Part shown: positions 10,364 to 50,634 of the stretch, piece after piece | Position numbering within the stretch: position 1 is the stretch's first letter | Layout: each line of letters opens with the position of its first letter | DNA from: an uncultured Gammaproteobacteria bacterium | Lineage (GTDB): Bacteria; Pseudomonadota; Gammaproteobacteria; PS1; Pseudothioglobaceae | Length of the DNA stretch: 64,000 nt | Assembly: GCA_902513495.1 (NCBI GenBank) | Contig: CABXNH010000002.1 | Coordinates: forward strand, 1-64,000 | Reading direction: 5' to 3' | Notes under the pieces: model-generated | The model's input: the letters and a program-made list of their open reading frames with translations, nothing else | What the model was told of the DNA's origin: nothing | Databases searched by the model: none | Position numbers and translations under genes: made by a program

Positions 10364-11962
10364 TTAATATTTGTCACTATCAAGCTTAATAAAAAGAAGC
10401 ATAATAATAGCTCCTAAAAATACCATCATTAGCGCGGGAATGGCCGCTCTGTCATAAAGCCCCTCAGAACTTAATTCAAAAACTCTTATTGCTAAAGTAT
10501 CCCAACCGAAGGGTCTAAGTAAGTAGGTTGCTGGCAACTCCTTCATAACGTCTACTGCAACAAGTAGACCTCCAGCTAAAATTCCTGGTGTCATCATTGG
10601 AAGGTAAATCTCTCTTATTAGTCGAATTCTTGAAGAACCAAGAAGTCTAGCACTTTGCTCAAATACTGGTTTAATTTGCTCACTTGAAGCACTTGTGGAA
10701 TTATAGGCAATAGCCATAAACCTTGAAACATAAGCAAAAAGAAGTAAAGCAACAGAGCCAAAAAGAATATGGTTGATGGATTCACCACCTAAATATATAC
10801 TAATTAATGAGATGTTCTGAACACCATATAGAAGCCCTACAGCCATTACTGATCCAGGTAAAGCATATCCTAAAGTTGAAAATCTAATCAGCATTTGTAG
10901 CCCTTTACTTTCAGCTTTTCGACGGCTTGGCAGAGCTAGTAAAGTTGCTATTGTTACCGTCAAGATAGTTGCACTTATTGTTAAGATTCCAGTTGCTGAA
11001 AAATAACCTGAATACATCTTATTTATCTCTACAGAGTACTTTTCAAGACTCCAAATTATGAGTTGTAACATCGGCATAGCAAAGGAAAGCATAAACACAA
11101 CAAAAACAAACAAAAATAATAACCAACCAATGACACTATTTGCCTTATAGGGCCTATTATGAGAAACATCTGAAGAGTAGTATTTAGCTCTTCCTCGAGC
11201 TTTTTTTTCAAAATAAATTAGAAAAAAAGCAATTAAGACGAGTATTGATGCAAGTTGAGCGGCAACTTCAATAGATCTAAAATCTCCCCATGCTGAATAT
11301 ATTGCAGTAGTAAAAGTTGAGTAATTAAATAAAGAAACCACTCCAAAATCTGCCAATGTTTCCATCAAAGTAACTAATAATCCAGCAGCAATAGCTGGCC
11401 TTGCAAGTGGAACAGAAATCTTCCAAAAAACTCTTAAAGGCTGAGCACCCAACATCTTTCCAGCTTCAATCATTTGTATTTTTTGACGCTTAAAGGATGC
11501 TCTAGCCATCATGTAAACGTAAGGGTAAAAAACTAAGATAAATGTTAATATAATTGCCCAGCTTCCCGCCCTGATATCAAAACCAGGCACTCCAGTATAT
11601 TCCCTTAACCAAACTTGAGCGTAACCGGAGTAATCAAAAACACCTAAGTATACGAATGCTAAAACATATGCTGGAATTGCAAAAGGTAGAAAAAGTGCCC
11701 ATTCAAGCCAAGCTCTGCCTGGAAAATCAACCATCACAACTAAATACGCTAGAACTGTGCCTAGCACACTAACACCAATACCCACACCTAAAAGCAATAC
11801 TAGTGTTGAACTGATGAGTTCAGGTAGTAAATTTTCAGCAAAGTGCCCCCAGAGCTCAGTTCCTGGAAACAGCCAGGCTGAACAAACAACTATTATTGGG
11901 AATGAGACTGAAAGCGCTAGTAAGCCCATTAAGAAATTTGAGTTATTTTTCTTGCTTATCAT
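10364..11962 (-). CDS. fbpB: Fe(III) ABC transporter permease (two fused modules, FbpB-type)
   Basis: 532 aa, two binding-protein-dependent permease modules, EAGKMLGAQPLRVFWKISVPLARPA EAA loop; next to fbpA. Confidence 0.9.
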   Translation of the reverse strand: MISKKNNSNFLMGLLALSVSFPIIVVCSAWLFPGTELWGHFAENLLPELISSTLVLLLGVGIGVSVLGTVLAYLVVMVDFPGRAWLEWALFLPFAIPAYVLAFVYLGVFDYSGYAQVWLREYTGVPGFDIRAGSWAIILTFILVFYPYVYMMARASFKRQKIQMIEAGKMLGAQPLRVFWKISVPLARPAIAAGLLVTLMETLADFGVVSLFNYSTFTTAIYSAWGDFRSIEVAAQLASILVLIAFFLIYFEKKARGRAKYYSSDVSHNRPYKANSVIGWLLFLFVFVVFMLSFAMPMLQLIIWSLEKYSVEINKMYSGYFSATGILTISATILTVTIATLLALPSRRKAESKGLQMLIRFSTLGYALPGSVMAVGLLYGVQNISLISIYLGGESINHILFGSVALLLFAYVSRFMAIAYNSTSASSEQIKPVFEQSARLLGSSRIRLIREIYLPMMTPGILAGGLLVAVDVMKELPATYLLRPFGWDTLAIRVFELSSEGLYDRAAIPALMMVFLGAIIMLLFIKLDSDKY

Positions 11963-11990: not shown

Positions 11991-13007
11991 TTATCTATAG
12001 CCTTCTCTCTGCATAAGTGAAACTGAATCAGCTTGATTTTTTCCCGCAACAGATAAGTTCATTTTATCCTGATTAAAATCTCCCCATAAGGTAATCAAAT
12101 TGGCTGCTTTAATTTTTTGACTAGCTGGATATTCTTTGTTAAGACTAACATATATCTTTTGGGCTTCTATTGAAGTCAAAAACTCTAGCAATTTAATTGC
12201 ATTCTCAGAATTTTTAGAGTGTTTTGTAACTCCCGCACCTGAAACATTAACATGTGTTCCGGTAGATTTTTGGTTAGCCCAAAACAATTTAAGTGCCACA
12301 TTAGGGTCTTTCGCTTGAAGTCGACCAAAATAGTAACTATTTACAATTCCGACATCGCACTGCCCTGCCAGAATCGAAGTCATTATGTGGACATCTTCGG
12401 CATGAGGTGTAGCAGCTAGATTATCAATCCATCCCCTCACTACTTTCGTTGTTTTATCTAAACCATCATGATAAATTAAAGACGACACTAGAGACTTGGT
12501 ATAAACTTTTTTGCTGGTTCTTAAACAAAGCCTACCTTTCCATTTCTTATTAGCTAAGTCTTGGTAGCTAGATAATTCATCTGGATTAACTCTTTCAGCA
12601 CTGTAAATAATTGTTCGGGCTCTGACTGATAGGCCTGTCCATAATCCATTTAGGTCTCGTAGATGAGACGGTATGTTATTTTCAATAATTTGACTTTCAA
12701 CTGGTTGAAATAAATTTTGTGTAGATGCATACCAAAGGTTTCCAGCATCTACAGTCATAAAAAGATCGGCCTTGGTTTTCTTTCCCTCTAATTTTATTCT
12801 CTCAATTAATGCACCACCTTTTCCAGTAAGGTAGCTAACTTTAATTCCAGTTTTCTCAGTAAATGCATCAAATAGTGGTTTAATTAAATGCTCTTTTCTA
12901 GTGCTATATACAGTCAAATCATTATCACTTGCAGCAAATACTGAGGTTAAGAAAGATGATGAAAAAAATGTAATTATGAAAAATAGAATTGAAACTTGTC
13001 TAGTCAA
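11991..13007 (-). CDS. fbpA: Fe(III) ABC transporter substrate-binding protein (FbpA/FutA-type)
   Basis: Signal peptide, LTVYSTRKEHLIKPLFDAFTEKTGIKVSYLTGKGGALIERI, GIVNSYYFGRL. Confidence 0.93.
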   Translation of the reverse strand: MTRQVSILFFIITFFSSSFLTSVFAASDNDLTVYSTRKEHLIKPLFDAFTEKTGIKVSYLTGKGGALIERIKLEGKKTKADLFMTVDAGNLWYASTQNLFQPVESQIIENNIPSHLRDLNGLWTGLSVRARTIIYSAERVNPDELSSYQDLANKKWKGRLCLRTSKKVYTKSLVSSLIYHDGLDKTTKVVRGWIDNLAATPHAEDVHIMTSILAGQCDVGIVNSYYFGRLQAKDPNVALKLFWANQKSTGTHVNVSGAGVTKHSKNSENAIKLLEFLTSIEAQKIYVSLNKEYPASQKIKAANLITLWGDFNQDKMNLSVAGKNQADSVSLMQREGYR

Positions 13008-13065: not shown

Positions 13066-13971
13066 CTAAGAGCCAACTAATAAATTTTTGAGAGAGTGGT
13101 TGTCTTCTGATTGCTCTTTCAGTCCAAAATCTATTTGTTGATTTTTTTTAGAAACAATACAACTTTTTCCGAGATTATCCCATATTGCAAAGATTGCACC
13201 GAAGTTACAATCAAAATGTTTGGGGTTAGTTGAATGATGAAGCTGATGCTGTGCTGGTGAGATAAAAATCTTTTCCAGCCAATCCCAATATCCAAAGCTG
13301 ATATGGGAATGTCTGAGGTTAGAACCAAGTAAATGAAACATAACAACAAAAGCACTTGAACCAAAAATTTCAATTAAAGAAACTTTATTTGAAAAGAAGA
13401 AGAAGCACACTCCCAGGCAGAGTGAATGAACAACAATAGCTCGCAAACTGAAGAGAACTGCCTCAATTGGGTGTGTTCTGAGAACTGTTAATGGTGTCAA
13501 ATTGGTTGCCGAATGATGAGCCTTGTGAAACCTCCACAATATAGGCACACGATGCATTATTTTATGCAAATAATATCTTGAATAATCGTCAATAACTAGA
13601 AGAACTGTCGTAAAAATAAGCATTACCATCCAGACAGGAGTTGACTCAGAGGGCCTTGTAAATAATAAATGCATATTTTCAAAAACAAATAAAGTAAGTG
13701 CTAACTGCCCAATAATTATTGGTGCTATAAGTTTTATAAAAAATTGATTTATCAGTATTAATTTGTAGTCTGCCATAGCAGACTTAGAAAACCAGATTTT
13801 GGAATTAAAAAAACCACTAACGATATTCATTAGTGGTTTTTTTTGAACTATCCTAATCCAAATTAATGCTATAAAAGCAGCGCTTATTAAGTAGCCTACA
13901 AATAAGCGCTTTTCTGGATTAAGAAAGTTAGTAAAAAAATCAGTCATTCTCTGCGCTAGATTTTGCTCCAA
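13066..13971 (-). CDS. Sterol desaturase / fatty-acid hydroxylase superfamily membrane di-iron protein
   Basis: His-box motifs HKIMH, HKAHH, HQLHH with several TM segments; internal Met (MTDFFTN, about 13947) is the likely start. Confidence 0.88.
   Translation of the reverse strand: MEQNLAQRMTDFFTNFLNPEKRLFVGYLISAAFIALIWIRIVQKKPLMNIVSGFFNSKIWFSKSAMADYKLILINQFFIKLIAPIIIGQLALTLFVFENMHLLFTRPSESTPVWMVMLIFTTVLLVIDDYSRYYLHKIMHRVPILWRFHKAHHSATNLTPLTVLRTHPIEAVLFSLRAIVVHSLCLGVCFFFFSNKVSLIEIFGSSAFVVMFHLLGSNLRHSHISFGYWDWLEKIFISPAQHQLHHSTNPKHFDCNFGAIFAIWDNLGKSCIVSKKNQQIDFGLKEQSEDNHSLKNLLVGS
13807..13843 (-). terminator. Terminator-like hairpin inside the membrane hydroxylase coding sequence
   Basis: AAAAAAACCACTAA-cgatattca-TTAGTGGTTTTTTT, 14-bp perfect inverted repeat flanked by A/T tracts. 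Confidence 0.65.
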
Positions 13972-15337
13972 GAGATTTAACTAATTCTGACAAACCTGCT
14001 GTTTGGTCATGAGATTTTGCAACTACGCTAAATTCATCAACCATTAGGTTTTGAACTTTTAACATATGAACCATGTAACCACCCCAAGTTTCTGCATCAC
14101 TTTGGACATATTCTCCATTTGAATCAATTCCAGTCACTTGCGTATTGCCTAAAAGAAGAGGACTATAGCCAATTAAACGATTCAGCTTAACAGAGGTTGC
14201 GCCCATATCTTTTCCGCCGACTTGAAGAGCTAAGGCAAAACCTTTAAGCTCTCCCCAGTGTTTAGCATATTTGCGCCATGCCTTGGCAACGTCACCACCT
14301 GATTCAAGAATCGCTTCAATTTTGACCATATCTTCATAGGTTTCGCCGGCGTATTTGAAAACTGCCTCAGCAATTACTTTTTCCCAATTTGTTTTGATTG
14401 TTTGGGCATAGCCTTTTAACTGATCTCGTTCAGAGTCGCTCAATGCACGTGCATTTACTGCAACTAACAGGTCTCTTCCATCCATGTATGCCCCAACAAT
14501 GTCATGAAGGTAAGTTGTTTTACCACCTTTATCAAATGAAGATGCATAGTAAGCATGACCATAGGCCATCTCCTTATACAAGTCAACTTTTCCGTCATAA
14601 TTATAATCAGCAACGCTGGCGTCTTTTTGCTTAGCAATATCGTAAACATTTTGTGCTGTTAAGGTTAATGTATGAGAGGGAGCACCAAAATAACCAAATG
14701 CCTCATCCCAAACATGCTCTTTTCCAGTGTAAGCTGCACCATCCTTATATGGCTTATTGTTAGGCTTAGTATCAGCCTCAAGCTTTTCATCAAGATAGTT
14801 ATCTACGGCTTGGTTATATGTCACAGCACCCATCAAAAATTTCGAAACTAGCTGCGTATAGTCAAATGCATGAGCAGGGTCATAACCATCCTCAGACTCA
14901 GCTGCTTTTTCAAACATAAAAGCAACAACTTCTGGGCCAGTCATGCTTCCAACCCACCCTGGAATTAATCCTTTGTATGTTTTACCACTAAGATTTTTAT
15001 TAGAAAGCTCACCAATAGTTGATTGCTTAATAACAAAATCACCTTTAGTAGCTGGTGCAATAATAGGTCTGTTTGCATCGTCACCTGAATAGTAACTTTG
15101 CATTGCACTAATATCACCTTTTGAGATTAGTTTTTTAAGTGAGCTCTCAAGTGCATGTCTGGCCATCTGACCTTTATAAGAGACAGACGTTGTTGCACTT
15201 CCAGAGTAATCTTTGAGTGTAACTGGAAAGTCAGCATAAACATTTGACCTTGCAAATGAAGATGATGAAATTAAAACTGCCGATACTAAAACGACAGTTA
15301 ATGGAACTGCTTTGGCAGTTAATCTTTTATTTAACAT
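13940..15337 (-). CDS. DUF4856-type secreted/periplasmic protein (putative iron-related)
   Basis: Signal peptide; GKEHVWDEAFGYFGAPSH motif and overall layout resemble DUF4856; Fur-like site upstream. Confidence 0.75.
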   Translation of the reverse strand: MLNKRLTAKAVPLTVVLVSAVLISSSSFARSNVYADFPVTLKDYSGSATTSVSYKGQMARHALESSLKKLISKGDISAMQSYYSGDDANRPIIAPATKGDFVIKQSTIGELSNKNLSGKTYKGLIPGWVGSMTGPEVVAFMFEKAAESEDGYDPAHAFDYTQLVSKFLMGAVTYNQAVDNYLDEKLEADTKPNNKPYKDGAAYTGKEHVWDEAFGYFGAPSHTLTLTAQNVYDIAKQKDASVADYNYDGKVDLYKEMAYGHAYYASSFDKGGKTTYLHDIVGAYMDGRDLLVAVNARALSDSERDQLKGYAQTIKTNWEKVIAEAVFKYAGETYEDMVKIEAILESGGDVAKAWRKYAKHWGELKGFALALQVGGKDMGATSVKLNRLIGYSPLLLGNTQVTGIDSNGEYVQSDAETWGGYMVHMLKVQNLMVDEFSVVAKSHDQTAGLSELVKSLGAKSSAEND

Positions 15338-15381: not shown

Positions 15382-15400
15382 AATGATAATGAATATCATT
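15382..15400 (-). promoter_or_regulatory. Fur-box-like dyad upstream of the DUF4856 gene
   Basis: AATGATA-ATGAA-TATCATT, 7-bp arms, 45 nt upstream of the start codon. Confidence 0.7.
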
Positions 15401-15424
15401 CGCGTCCGCTAATGATACCCATTT

Positions 15425-16075
15425 TTATTTAATAAGCAACTTCTTTTTATTGATTATTCCAACTTTATCTGCAAAAGCTTCTGCTTCAGCCTCATCATGT
15501 GTTACAAGAATTGACGTTACACCAGCATTTTTAAGTATTTCCCGCACTTCTTTAACAAGTTGATCCCTATGAGATTTGTCCAAACTGGAGAATGGTTCAT
15601 CAAGTAAAAGAAGCTTAGGTGAAGTCGCAAGAGAACGAGCAAGAGAAACTCTTTGTTGCTCTCCACCCGAAAGCTGATGTGGATACTTATCCTCTATTCC
15701 TTCAAGACTAATCAACCCAAGAAGACTCTTAACCTTTTTATTTTTTTCATTTGTTGTAAGATGACTGATTCCAAAACTAATATTTTGAAAAACTGTCATG
15801 TGAGGGAAAAGCGCATAATCTTGGAAAACCATACCTACCTCTCTTGACTCGGGTTTTACTAAATGATTACCATCGTTACTCAATGAATTTCCGTCCAGGG
15901 CAACAGAACCCAACTTAGCATTCTCTAGCCCAGCAATAAATCGAAGAGCCGAACTTTTTCCACTTCCACTATCACCTAATAAAGCAAAAATATCACCACT
16001 TTCTAGATCAAGATTAAATCCATCTAGAACATGATTTTCATCAAAAGAGATTGATAAATGACTAACACTAAGCAT
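15425..16075 (-). CDS. fbpC: Fe(III) ABC transporter ATPase, short form (ATP-binding domain only)
   Basis: Walker A LLGDSGSGKSS, signature LSGGEQQRVSLARSLA, Walker B LLLLDEPFSSLD. ATG at 16075 preferred over the tracked TTG at 16087. Confidence 0.88.
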   Translation of the reverse strand: MLSVSHLSISFDENHVLDGFNLDLESGDIFALLGDSGSGKSSALRFIAGLENAKLGSVALDGNSLSNDGNHLVKPESREVGMVFQDYALFPHMTVFQNISFGISHLTTNEKNKKVKSLLGLISLEGIEDKYPHQLSGGEQQRVSLARSLATSPKLLLLDEPFSSLDKSHRDQLVKEVREILKNAGVTSILVTHDEAEAEAFADKVGIINKKKLLIK

Positions 16076-16089
16076 TTTTAAATACAAAT

Positions 16090-16108
16090 AATAATGATTC
16101 TCATTATT
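16090..16108 (-). promoter_or_regulatory. Fur-box-like site upstream of fbpC
   Basis: AATAATGATTCTCATTATT, 15/19 by eye to GATAATGATAATCATTATC. Confidence 0.75.
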
Positions 16109-37062: not shown

Positions 37063-38765
37063 TAATCAAGCTTATCAACAATAAAACTAACTGCCTCCTT
37101 AAAGTCAATTTCAACTTTATCTGGATGCATCCTAGATTTATATTCTATTTTCCCGTTGTCAGCATGAGTATCACTGATCACGAGGCGATGGGGAATACCA
37201 AGAAGTTCAGAGTCAGCAAACATAATTCCAGGTCTTTCCTTACGATCATCAATTAAAACATCAATATTCTGTTCTATGCAGTCCATATAAAGCTGATCTG
37301 CAAGTGCTTTAACGCGAGATGATTTATTGTAATTTATAGGGACTATAACAAGCTCAAATGGAGCAATAGCTTGAGGAAAAATAATACCCCTATCATCATT
37401 ATTTTGTTCAATACTCGCTGCGATAATTCGTGTTACACCAATACCATAGCAACCCATATTCATATAGACTGCCCTTCCATCTTCACCGATTACGTTAGCA
37501 TTCATAGAGTCTGAGTACTTAGTGCCGAGCTGAAAAATATGTCCAACCTCGATGCCTCTTTTAATTTCTATCTTGCCCTTTCCATCAGGTGATGGGTCTC
37601 CAGCAACAACATTACGTATATCTGAAGCAACAATCTTTTTTGAGTCTCTTTGCCAGTTGACTCCAATATAATGCTCATCGTCCTTATTAGAACCACAAAC
37701 AAAGTCTGATAAATGAGCCGCTGCATAATCAACAAAGATTGGAATATCGAGATTTACAACTCCAATAGACCCAAAAGAACAGCCTAATTGCTTAAGAACT
37801 TTGGTCTCTTCGGCCATTTGCAGAGGGTTTTTAACACCGTCCAATTTGGCTGCTTTCACTTCATTGAGTTCATGATCGCCTCGCAAAACAAGAGCAATAA
37901 GATTATCATCAGTTCCTTCAACAATCAGCGTTTTTATTGATTTTTTTGGGCTAATTTTTAATAAATTACAGACATCATCAATTGTTTTGACACCGGGTGT
38001 ATGAGCAATCTCTAATTCTTGTTTGGGGGCATTAGGTTCACCTTGAGGAAGCGTTTCAGCCCTTTCAATATTGGCAGCATAACTAGAGTCATCAGAAAAA
38101 CAAATAGCATCCTCACCTGACTCAGCAAGAACATGGAATTCATGAGAACTATCACCACCAATAGCACCAGAATCAGCTAAAACGGGTCTGTAGTCCAAAC
38201 CTAATCTATCAAAAATATTACAATAAGTCTGGTGCATCACTTGGTATGTCTCACCAAGTGATTTTTTATCTATATGAAAGGAGTAAGCATCTTTCATAAT
38301 AAATTCTCTTGAACGCATGACTCCAAAACGAGGCCTTATTTCATCCCTAAATTTTGTTTGAATTTGATAAAAGTTGATAGGTAACTGCTTATAGCTTCTT
38401 ATATACTGCTTAGCTATGGTTGTAATCACTTCCTCATGTGTTGGGCCCATGCAAAAATCTCTTTCATGCCTATCCTTAAAACGAAGCAACTCAGGGCCAT
38501 ATTCCTCCCACCTCTTTGATTCTTGCCATAGCTCAGCTGGCTGCGCAACTGGCATCAATAATTCTAATGCCTTTGATTTGTTCATCTCCTGTCTTATTAT
38601 TTTTTCAACTTTCTGAATAATTTTCAAACCAATGGGTAAGTATGAATAAAGTCCAGATGCTAATTTAGATATTAGACCGGCTCTTATCATTAATTGGTGA
38701 GATATGATTTGGGCATCGTTAGGCGCCTCCTTCACTGTAGAGATTAAAAAATCACTGCTTTTCAT
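37062..38765 (-). CDS. proS: Prolyl-tRNA synthetase, bacterial type
   Basis: [55 protein letters not shown]. Confidence 0.98.
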
Positions 38766-49941: not shown

Positions 49942-50634
49942 TTATCCCATAGATTGGCTATAGCTTTCTAAGCCATCTAAAACCAAATTATCAAAGAATT
50001 CAATAGAGTCAGGCAGCTCTTGTTTAATTTCTTTTATCATACCTCCACAAATAGCAATAATCCCATCAGAGAAGTTGGATTGAAAACTTTCAATTTGATA
50101 ATTGATAGCACTAATCATCATTGCATAGGTTCCATGCTCCCATGCATCATCAGTATTATTAGCTAAATCTTTTGAACCAGAGGTTAAATTACTCGTTTTA
50201 AACTTTTCAAAACTCCATCTTAGAGAACTCAGACCTGGCATTATTAGGCCGCCTTGATGCATTCCATTCTTATCAATCACATCACAGGTAATCGCGCTTC
50301 CAATATCAATTACCAAAAGTGGCTTATTGGGGAAATGGTTTATTGCGCCTAACATAGCAGCAAATCGATCTGCGCCTAACTTGGAAGGATCTTCATATGA
50401 AAGCGTAAGATTTCCAAATTTCTTTTGAGGTTTTATAATGTTTATTGTCTCAAAATGAGTCGATATTTCCTGAACAATATCTGAATGAGCCACAGCACTA
50501 AGCCAAGCAATATTTGTTTGGTTAAGTGCTTTTATTGAAAAATTTTCTATACCCTCTGAAAAAACTTTTGAATCACCCGTTCGCCATTTAACAGCAGAGT
50601 TTCCAATGTCTATAAAAAGGTTAGATTGGGACAT
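49942..50634 (-). CDS. coaX: Type III pantothenate kinase
   Basis: LFIDIGNSAVKWR, LGADRFAAMLGAI, LVIDIGSAITCDVID; ATG at 50634 preferred over the tracked start at 50682. Confidence 0.92.
   Translation of the reverse strand: MSQSNLFIDIGNSAVKWRTGDSKVFSEGIENFSIKALNQTNIAWLSAVAHSDIVQEISTHFETINIIKPQKKFGNLTLSYEDPSKLGADRFAAMLGAINHFPNKPLLVIDIGSAITCDVIDKNGMHQGGLIMPGLSSLRWSFEKFKTSNLTSGSKDLANNTDDAWEHGTYAMMISAINYQIESFQSNFSDGIIAICGGMIKEIKQELPDSIEFFDNLVLDGLESYSQSMG

Follow-up and report, generated by a model that had tools for sequence, protein, structure and literature searches.

A conserved, terminator-like hairpin inside the hydroxylase gene of a DUF4856-hydroxylase-fbpA-fbpB operon in Ca. Thioglobus/SUP05

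A stem-loop embedded in the 5' part of a hydroxylase gene, hereafter SL2, likely acts as a functional but partial Rho-independent terminator on the DUF4856-hydroxylase-fbpA-fbpB transcript. SL2 would thereby probably allow an iron-regulated, secreted DUF4856 protein to be made in excess of hydroxylase, FbpA and FbpB, and ribosomes translating the beginning of the hydroxylase ORF probably influence termination at this site. The hairpin was found in the window, that is, the whole 64-kb stretch of DNA analyzed here, and was compared with its counterparts in the Ca. Thioglobus/SUP05 genus and in more distant genomes.

Structure and position of SL2

The minus-strand sequence from 13843 to 13807, AAAAAAACCACTAATGAATATCGTTAGTGGTTTTTTT, gives the RNA A7-CCACUAAUGA-AUA-UCGUUAGUGG-U7, which is predicted to fold into 17 pairs, one of them G.U, around a 3-nt loop (-18.3 kcal/mol, z = -7.4). 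None of 200 shuffles matched this energy, and SL2 is the longest near-perfect close-arm inverted repeat of the window. As in intrinsic terminators, a stable hairpin is followed directly 3' by seven U residues. The first-pass annotation of this DNA had given the coordinates and sequence of the hairpin correctly, had placed it about 100 nt from the DUF4856 stop codon (we found 97 nt from TGA, 13942-13940, to the start of SL2) and had located it within the next ORF, where it indeed encodes QKKPLMNIVSGFF. The dyad that it described as a 14-bp perfect repeat is real, but its length was underestimated.

Table 1. Coordinates of the features in the window.
Feature	Position	Strand	Remarks
SL2, putative intrinsic-terminator hairpin	13807..13843	minus	A7 - 10-bp core - 3-nt loop - U7; hydroxylase codons 35-47
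SL1 (AGCGCUUAUU / AAUAAGCGCU, 12-nt loop)	13879..13910	minus	35 nt upstream of SL2, same ORF
FA_hydroxylase gene (PF04116)	13066..13947	minus	SL1 and SL2 in 5' part
ATGACTGA, hydroxylase start overlapping DUF4856 stop	13940..13947	minus	identical in 10/10 genomes
DUF4856 protein gene (PF16148)	13940..15337	minus	signal-peptide-like N-terminus; upstream of SL2
fbpA-like periplasmic binding protein gene	11991..13007	minus	downstream of SL2; without own Fur box
fbpB-like ABC permease gene	10364..11962	minus	downstream of SL2
fbpC-like ABC ATPase gene	15425..16087	minus	upstream of DUF4856
Fur-box-like site upstream of DUF4856	15385..15403	minus	16/19 to consensus; conserved in 10 genomes
Fur-box-like site upstream of fbpC	16090..16108	minus	16/19 to consensus; conserved in 10 genomes

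The ORF that contains SL2 is a real gene, as its product matches FA_hydroxylase in Pfam (E = 1.7e-22) over residues 122-268. Its N-terminus is also real protein, since distant orthologs align across this region and share the motif NPxKR...Y...SA, of which the conserved NPxKR lies upstream of the SL2 codons. In all ten genomes of the genus that carry the gene, SL2 occupies the same codons of the 293-codon frame, upstream of its stop codon. Translation more likely starts at the ATG at 13947 than at the TTG at 13971; the overlap ATGACTGA, through which the ATG shares 8 nt with the end of the DUF4856 gene, is present in all ten. This overlap probably reflects translational coupling of DUF4856 and the hydroxylase. 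A start codon within the SL2 loop, which reads ATG in the window, was rejected, as other genomes have GTA, ACA, GCA or ATA there.

We considered whether the stem might instead serve as a ribosomal frameshift or translational-pause hairpin. The slippery run A AAA AAA has the phase that frameshifting would require, with the stem immediately 3' of it, but the -1 and +1 frames stop after 1-25 codons, neither their lengths nor their sequences are conserved, and the A and U tracts belong to the stem itself, leaving this reading highly improbable.

Mirrored A and U tracts give SL2 a bidirectional look, and bidirectional terminators exist. SL2 could thus be read as a terminator of antisense transcription, with U8 on the plus strand; the A8 tract that yields this antisense U8 is found in 9/10 genomes. 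No plus-strand gene ends at SL2, however, and the antisense form is weaker, with a conserved helix of 13 bp compared to 16 bp in the sense RNA and a fold energy of -14.3 compared to -18.3 kcal/mol. Furthermore, where the core departs from Watson-Crick pairing, the sense RNA has G.U pairs, in place of which the antisense RNA would have A.C. Because both the wobbles and the longer helix fit the sense RNA, this is more likely the selected form, and we regard an antisense terminator as very unlikely.

Selection on the stem within the genus

Among 29 genomes of the Ca. Thioglobus/SUP05 genus, DUF4856 and the hydroxylase were found in ten, always together. The distribution of the locus is patchy, as only 1 of the 11 most complete genomes has it. 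SL2 is kept in all nine same-genus orthologs of the window gene, its spacing from the start codon being identical, and six or seven U residues follow the core in every case. Each of the ten genomes that have the gene contains a single copy of the pattern A6CCACT...AGTGGT6, which is absent from the other 19. A repeat or mobile element was rejected on these grounds, SL1 being likewise found once per genome where exactly matched. A search of a viral collection returned no relatives.

The first-pass annotation had named conservation of the dyad in relatives that keep the protein as one test of its terminator reading; this test did not refute it, as the dyad is retained in 10/10 genomes, with compensatory changes. 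Double changes occurred at three SL2 pairs, as expected under selection for RNA pairing. At offsets 116/128, the window genome has A-U and G004 has U-A, while seven genomes have G-C and one has G.U. Since G000 and G004 fall on separate branches of the operon-protein tree, at least two double changes at this pair provide the simplest account. In G004, the compensating change also turns a Val codon into an Ala codon.

Three controls bear on this pairing. Sliding the 3' partners by 1-3 columns reduced the proportion of paired cells from 98% to 39-62%. The covariation score was reached by 1/500 column shuffles, a control that ignores relatedness. When the protein was held fixed and codons were redrawn according to operon codon usage, equal pairing was obtained with P = 0.0004 in the window genome and P = 0.0004-0.010 across the ten. 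Across the hydroxylase and DUF4856 genes, synonymous variation reaches its minimum at hydroxylase codons 20-45 (0.26-0.32 of expected) and is already reduced at the end of the DUF4856 gene. The aligned coding sequence of the operon (6.8 kb) yielded just three conserved helices measuring 8 bp or longer; SL2 is by far the best of them (16 bp, 3 covarying pairs), the others being SL1 (10 bp) and one within DUF4856.

The stem is in phase, with third codon positions facing third codon positions, and one may ask whether, given the AT-richness of the genome, codons for K, K and F, F yield such a dyad by chance, without selection on the RNA. The conserved peptide KKPL..I.SGFF alone gives 12-13.5 of the 17 pairs on average. 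Against this stand the covariation, the synonymous constraint and the hairpins found at the matching place in distant genomes (see below), so that chance is already disfavored and hardly credible as an explanation.

Two further observations were made along the operon. The third conserved helix, of 10 bp, lies at 14230-14258 (minus strand) inside a highly conserved stretch of the DUF4856 protein. At the 3' end of fbpA (about 11991-12100, minus strand), before fbpB, synonymous variation falls to 0.48-0.6 of expected, and a further overlapping signal is possible there.

The second hairpin, SL1, is nearly invariant, synonymous sites included: all ten pairs are kept in the ten genomes, with one C to U wobble variant. 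Each arm contains the palindrome AGCGCT. SL1 might serve as a pause hairpin, belong to an attenuator or contribute to RNA stability; alternatively, its sequence might function as a DNA site. Its near-invariance at synonymous sites just upstream of SL2 invites the reading that the two hairpins act together with the overlapping start as a regulated attenuator, in which the position of the ribosome or an iron-linked factor acting on the first hydroxylase codons would set termination. In the consensus fold without the 3' arm of SL2, an early U-tract pairs with the SL2 A-tract, which also speaks for such a switch. However, we found no conserved antiterminator or other alternative pairing with the G-C core of SL2, hence no mutually exclusive structure of the classical attenuator type; no run of regulatory codons was seen, and no Rfam family scored above its gathering threshold (best, trpB motif, 32 bits vs 59). 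We consider regulated attenuation rather unlikely, and it is a refinement of the partial terminator proposed here, not its opposite.

Operon context and hairpins in distant genomes

The Fur-box-like palindromes preceding fbpC and DUF4856 score 15-17 of 19 across all ten genomes, compared with 12-15 for the ten best among 500 random windows. No such site was found before fbpA or fbpB in these genomes. Because Fur-box-like sites are present only before fbpC and DUF4856, hydroxylase, fbpA and fbpB appear to depend on read-through from upstream promoters, although constitutive promoters before fbpA are possible. Of the operon proteins, DUF4856 is the most conserved and evolves most slowly (90% mean pairwise identity), which fits, without proving, high expression. 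No paper on DUF4856 was found in the collection searched. In ABC importers, FbpA is usually made in excess; its position downstream of a predicted stop at SL2 counts against the terminator reading.

In two distant gammaproteobacterial loci, L136 (1625-8361) and L137 (minus strand), DUF4856 is followed by a lipoprotein-like ORF, an ORF of ~750 aa that by eye resembles a TonB-dependent receptor, and the hydroxylase, a gene set that suggests an iron- or metal-uptake cluster.

We used 800 kb of the complete relative G028 as a background sample for terminators. No other terminator-like site within a gene of this sample is as stable as the G028 copy of SL2, whose architecture resembles that of the intergenic terminators of this genome and clade, several of which likewise carry A-tracts; twelve terminator-like sites, SL2 included, have four or more upstream A residues. 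Elsewhere in the window, strong terminator-like hairpins lie antisense to predicted ORFs at 50495-50537 and 38236-38270 (plus strand; -17.5 and -12.2 kcal/mol, respectively).

In five distant genomes (G375, G656, G567, G589 and G710), DUF4856 (50-58% identity) is directly followed by the hydroxylase across a spacer of roughly 60-160 nt, and each spacer contains a strong hairpin (z = -3.0 to -5.3). Those of G375 (GGGCGAC...GTCGCCC-U8) and G656 (GGGGCGGC...GCCGCCCC-U5) look like textbook terminators. The G567 spacer has tandem hairpins with a U-rich tail that makes a weak U-tract, G589 has an A/U-mirrored hairpin, and G710, which keeps the order DUF4856-hydroxylase-fbpA-fbpB, has a hairpin without U-tract. 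Since each of these five spacers holds a hairpin, and SUP05, in which the two genes overlap, has one in the ORF, the order DUF4856, hairpin, hydroxylase is kept. This matching position is the strongest independent support for SL2 as a predicted terminator, and together with the compensatory changes and the placement of the Fur-box-like sites it supports the first-pass reading. Termination may not be the shared function of all these hairpins, because that of G710 is without U-tract and that of G567 has a weak one. The simplest history would be that the spacer was lost and the terminator re-evolved within the hydroxylase linker. Hydroxylases from other genera of the family are 37-42% identical, and the two inspected (L014 and L015) are without the dyad and about five linker residues.

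REP elements are a known case of hairpins that stabilize mRNA. By analogy, SL2, together with SL1, could block 3'-to-5' exonucleases after intercistronic cleavage, so that the DUF4856 segment outlives the rest of the transcript without any termination. The hairpin without U-tract at the matching place in G710, one of the five distant relatives, agrees with such a role, and paired U-tracts can stabilize upstream transcripts in ABC operons (PMC9045158). On the other hand, six or seven U residues are kept in 10/10 SUP05 genomes, U8 or U5 follows the hairpin in two of the distant relatives, and the architecture of SL2 equals that of the terminators of the genome, so we judge a purely stabilizing or processing hairpin unlikely.

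Proposed mechanism and relation to known systems

From the arrangement described above, we infer termination at SL2 and its efficiency, as well as the influence of coupling and the production of non-stop mRNA. RNA polymerase would initiate at the Fur-controlled promoter in front of DUF4856 (or fbpC) and transcribe DUF4856, and the hairpin plus U7 would be complete about 140 nt into the hydroxylase ORF. Part of the polymerases would release there, giving a DUF4856-only mRNA, and the remainder would read through into hydroxylase, fbpA and fbpB. With only 4-5 G-C pairs in its core, SL2 may terminate with no more than moderate efficiency, particularly while the ORF is being actively translated. 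We propose control by the ribosome because the hydroxylase ATG overlaps the DUF4856 stop codon: a promptly re-initiating ribosome close behind the polymerase would cover SL2 and favor read-through, and a lagging one would allow termination. As SL2 is inside the ORF, terminated mRNAs are expected to end after about 46 codons of the hydroxylase, with no stop codon, and to be substrates for ribosome rescue by tmRNA, which is present in G028.

A broader scenario, which we advance tentatively and would not count as probable, is that the intergenic terminator of distant relatives was replaced in this compact-genome lineage by one internal to an ORF, and that SL1, SL2 and the overlapping start constitute a translation-sensitive switch. 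Re-initiation would then decide whether the Fur-regulated transcript passes on to fbpA-fbpB, with non-stop mRNAs as a by-product of the 'off' state.

If SL2 is a partial terminator, the same nucleotides serve both to control the operon and to encode protein, and the covariation indicates selection on both functions. SL2 would offer a natural test of whether re-initiating ribosomes at an overlapping gene can set terminator read-through, and of how cells handle non-stop mRNAs that are made routinely. It also suggests that terminators of compact genomes can be overlooked inside annotated genes.

In Ruminiclostridium cellulolyticum, internal intrinsic terminators set the stoichiometry of ABC transporters, and those of a build similar to SL2 terminate 21-96% of transcription in ABC operons (PMC9045158). 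As in that system, SL2 would be a partial hairpin terminator behind the gene for a secreted component of an ABC-importer operon, with a U-tract that pairs with an upstream A-tract. In contrast, the R. cellulolyticum terminators are intergenic and located behind the gene for the substrate-binding protein, whereas SL2 is inside the next ORF and FbpA is encoded downstream of it.

Terminators embedded in an ORF that give rise to non-stop mRNA are known from arfA of E. coli and brfA of B. subtilis (PMC8012679). SL2 resembles them as a predicted Rho-independent terminator inside coding sequence from which non-stop mRNA is expected. However, the arfA and brfA terminators are close to the 3' end of the gene that they truncate, giving an active short protein, whereas with SL2, located in the first 16% of a downstream gene, only an enzyme fragment of 46 aa is expected, as truncation there removes the whole PF04116 domain. 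SL2 would therefore work like an ArfA/BrfA-type ORF terminator without being a member of that class.

Ribosomes that closely follow RNA polymerase can prevent such hairpins from acting, as in the E. coli pyr leader (PMC5021804), and by analogy a closely trailing ribosome is expected to block SL2. Unlike the pyr leader, the SUP05 operon has no leader peptide at this position but a full enzyme gene that starts at the overlapping stop codon. ORF-internal RNA 3' ends have also been described in E. coli, some perhaps arising by intrinsic termination; in the parts of that work available to us, the characterized cases are sRNA-type products, and a conserved terminator replacing an intergenic one is not described (PMC7815308). 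Intra-operonic terminators, ORF-embedded terminators and coupling are thus each already known. As far as the literature found goes, what is new is their combination in a conserved, covarying putative terminator that lies in the 5' part of the next gene and replaces the intergenic one of distant relatives.
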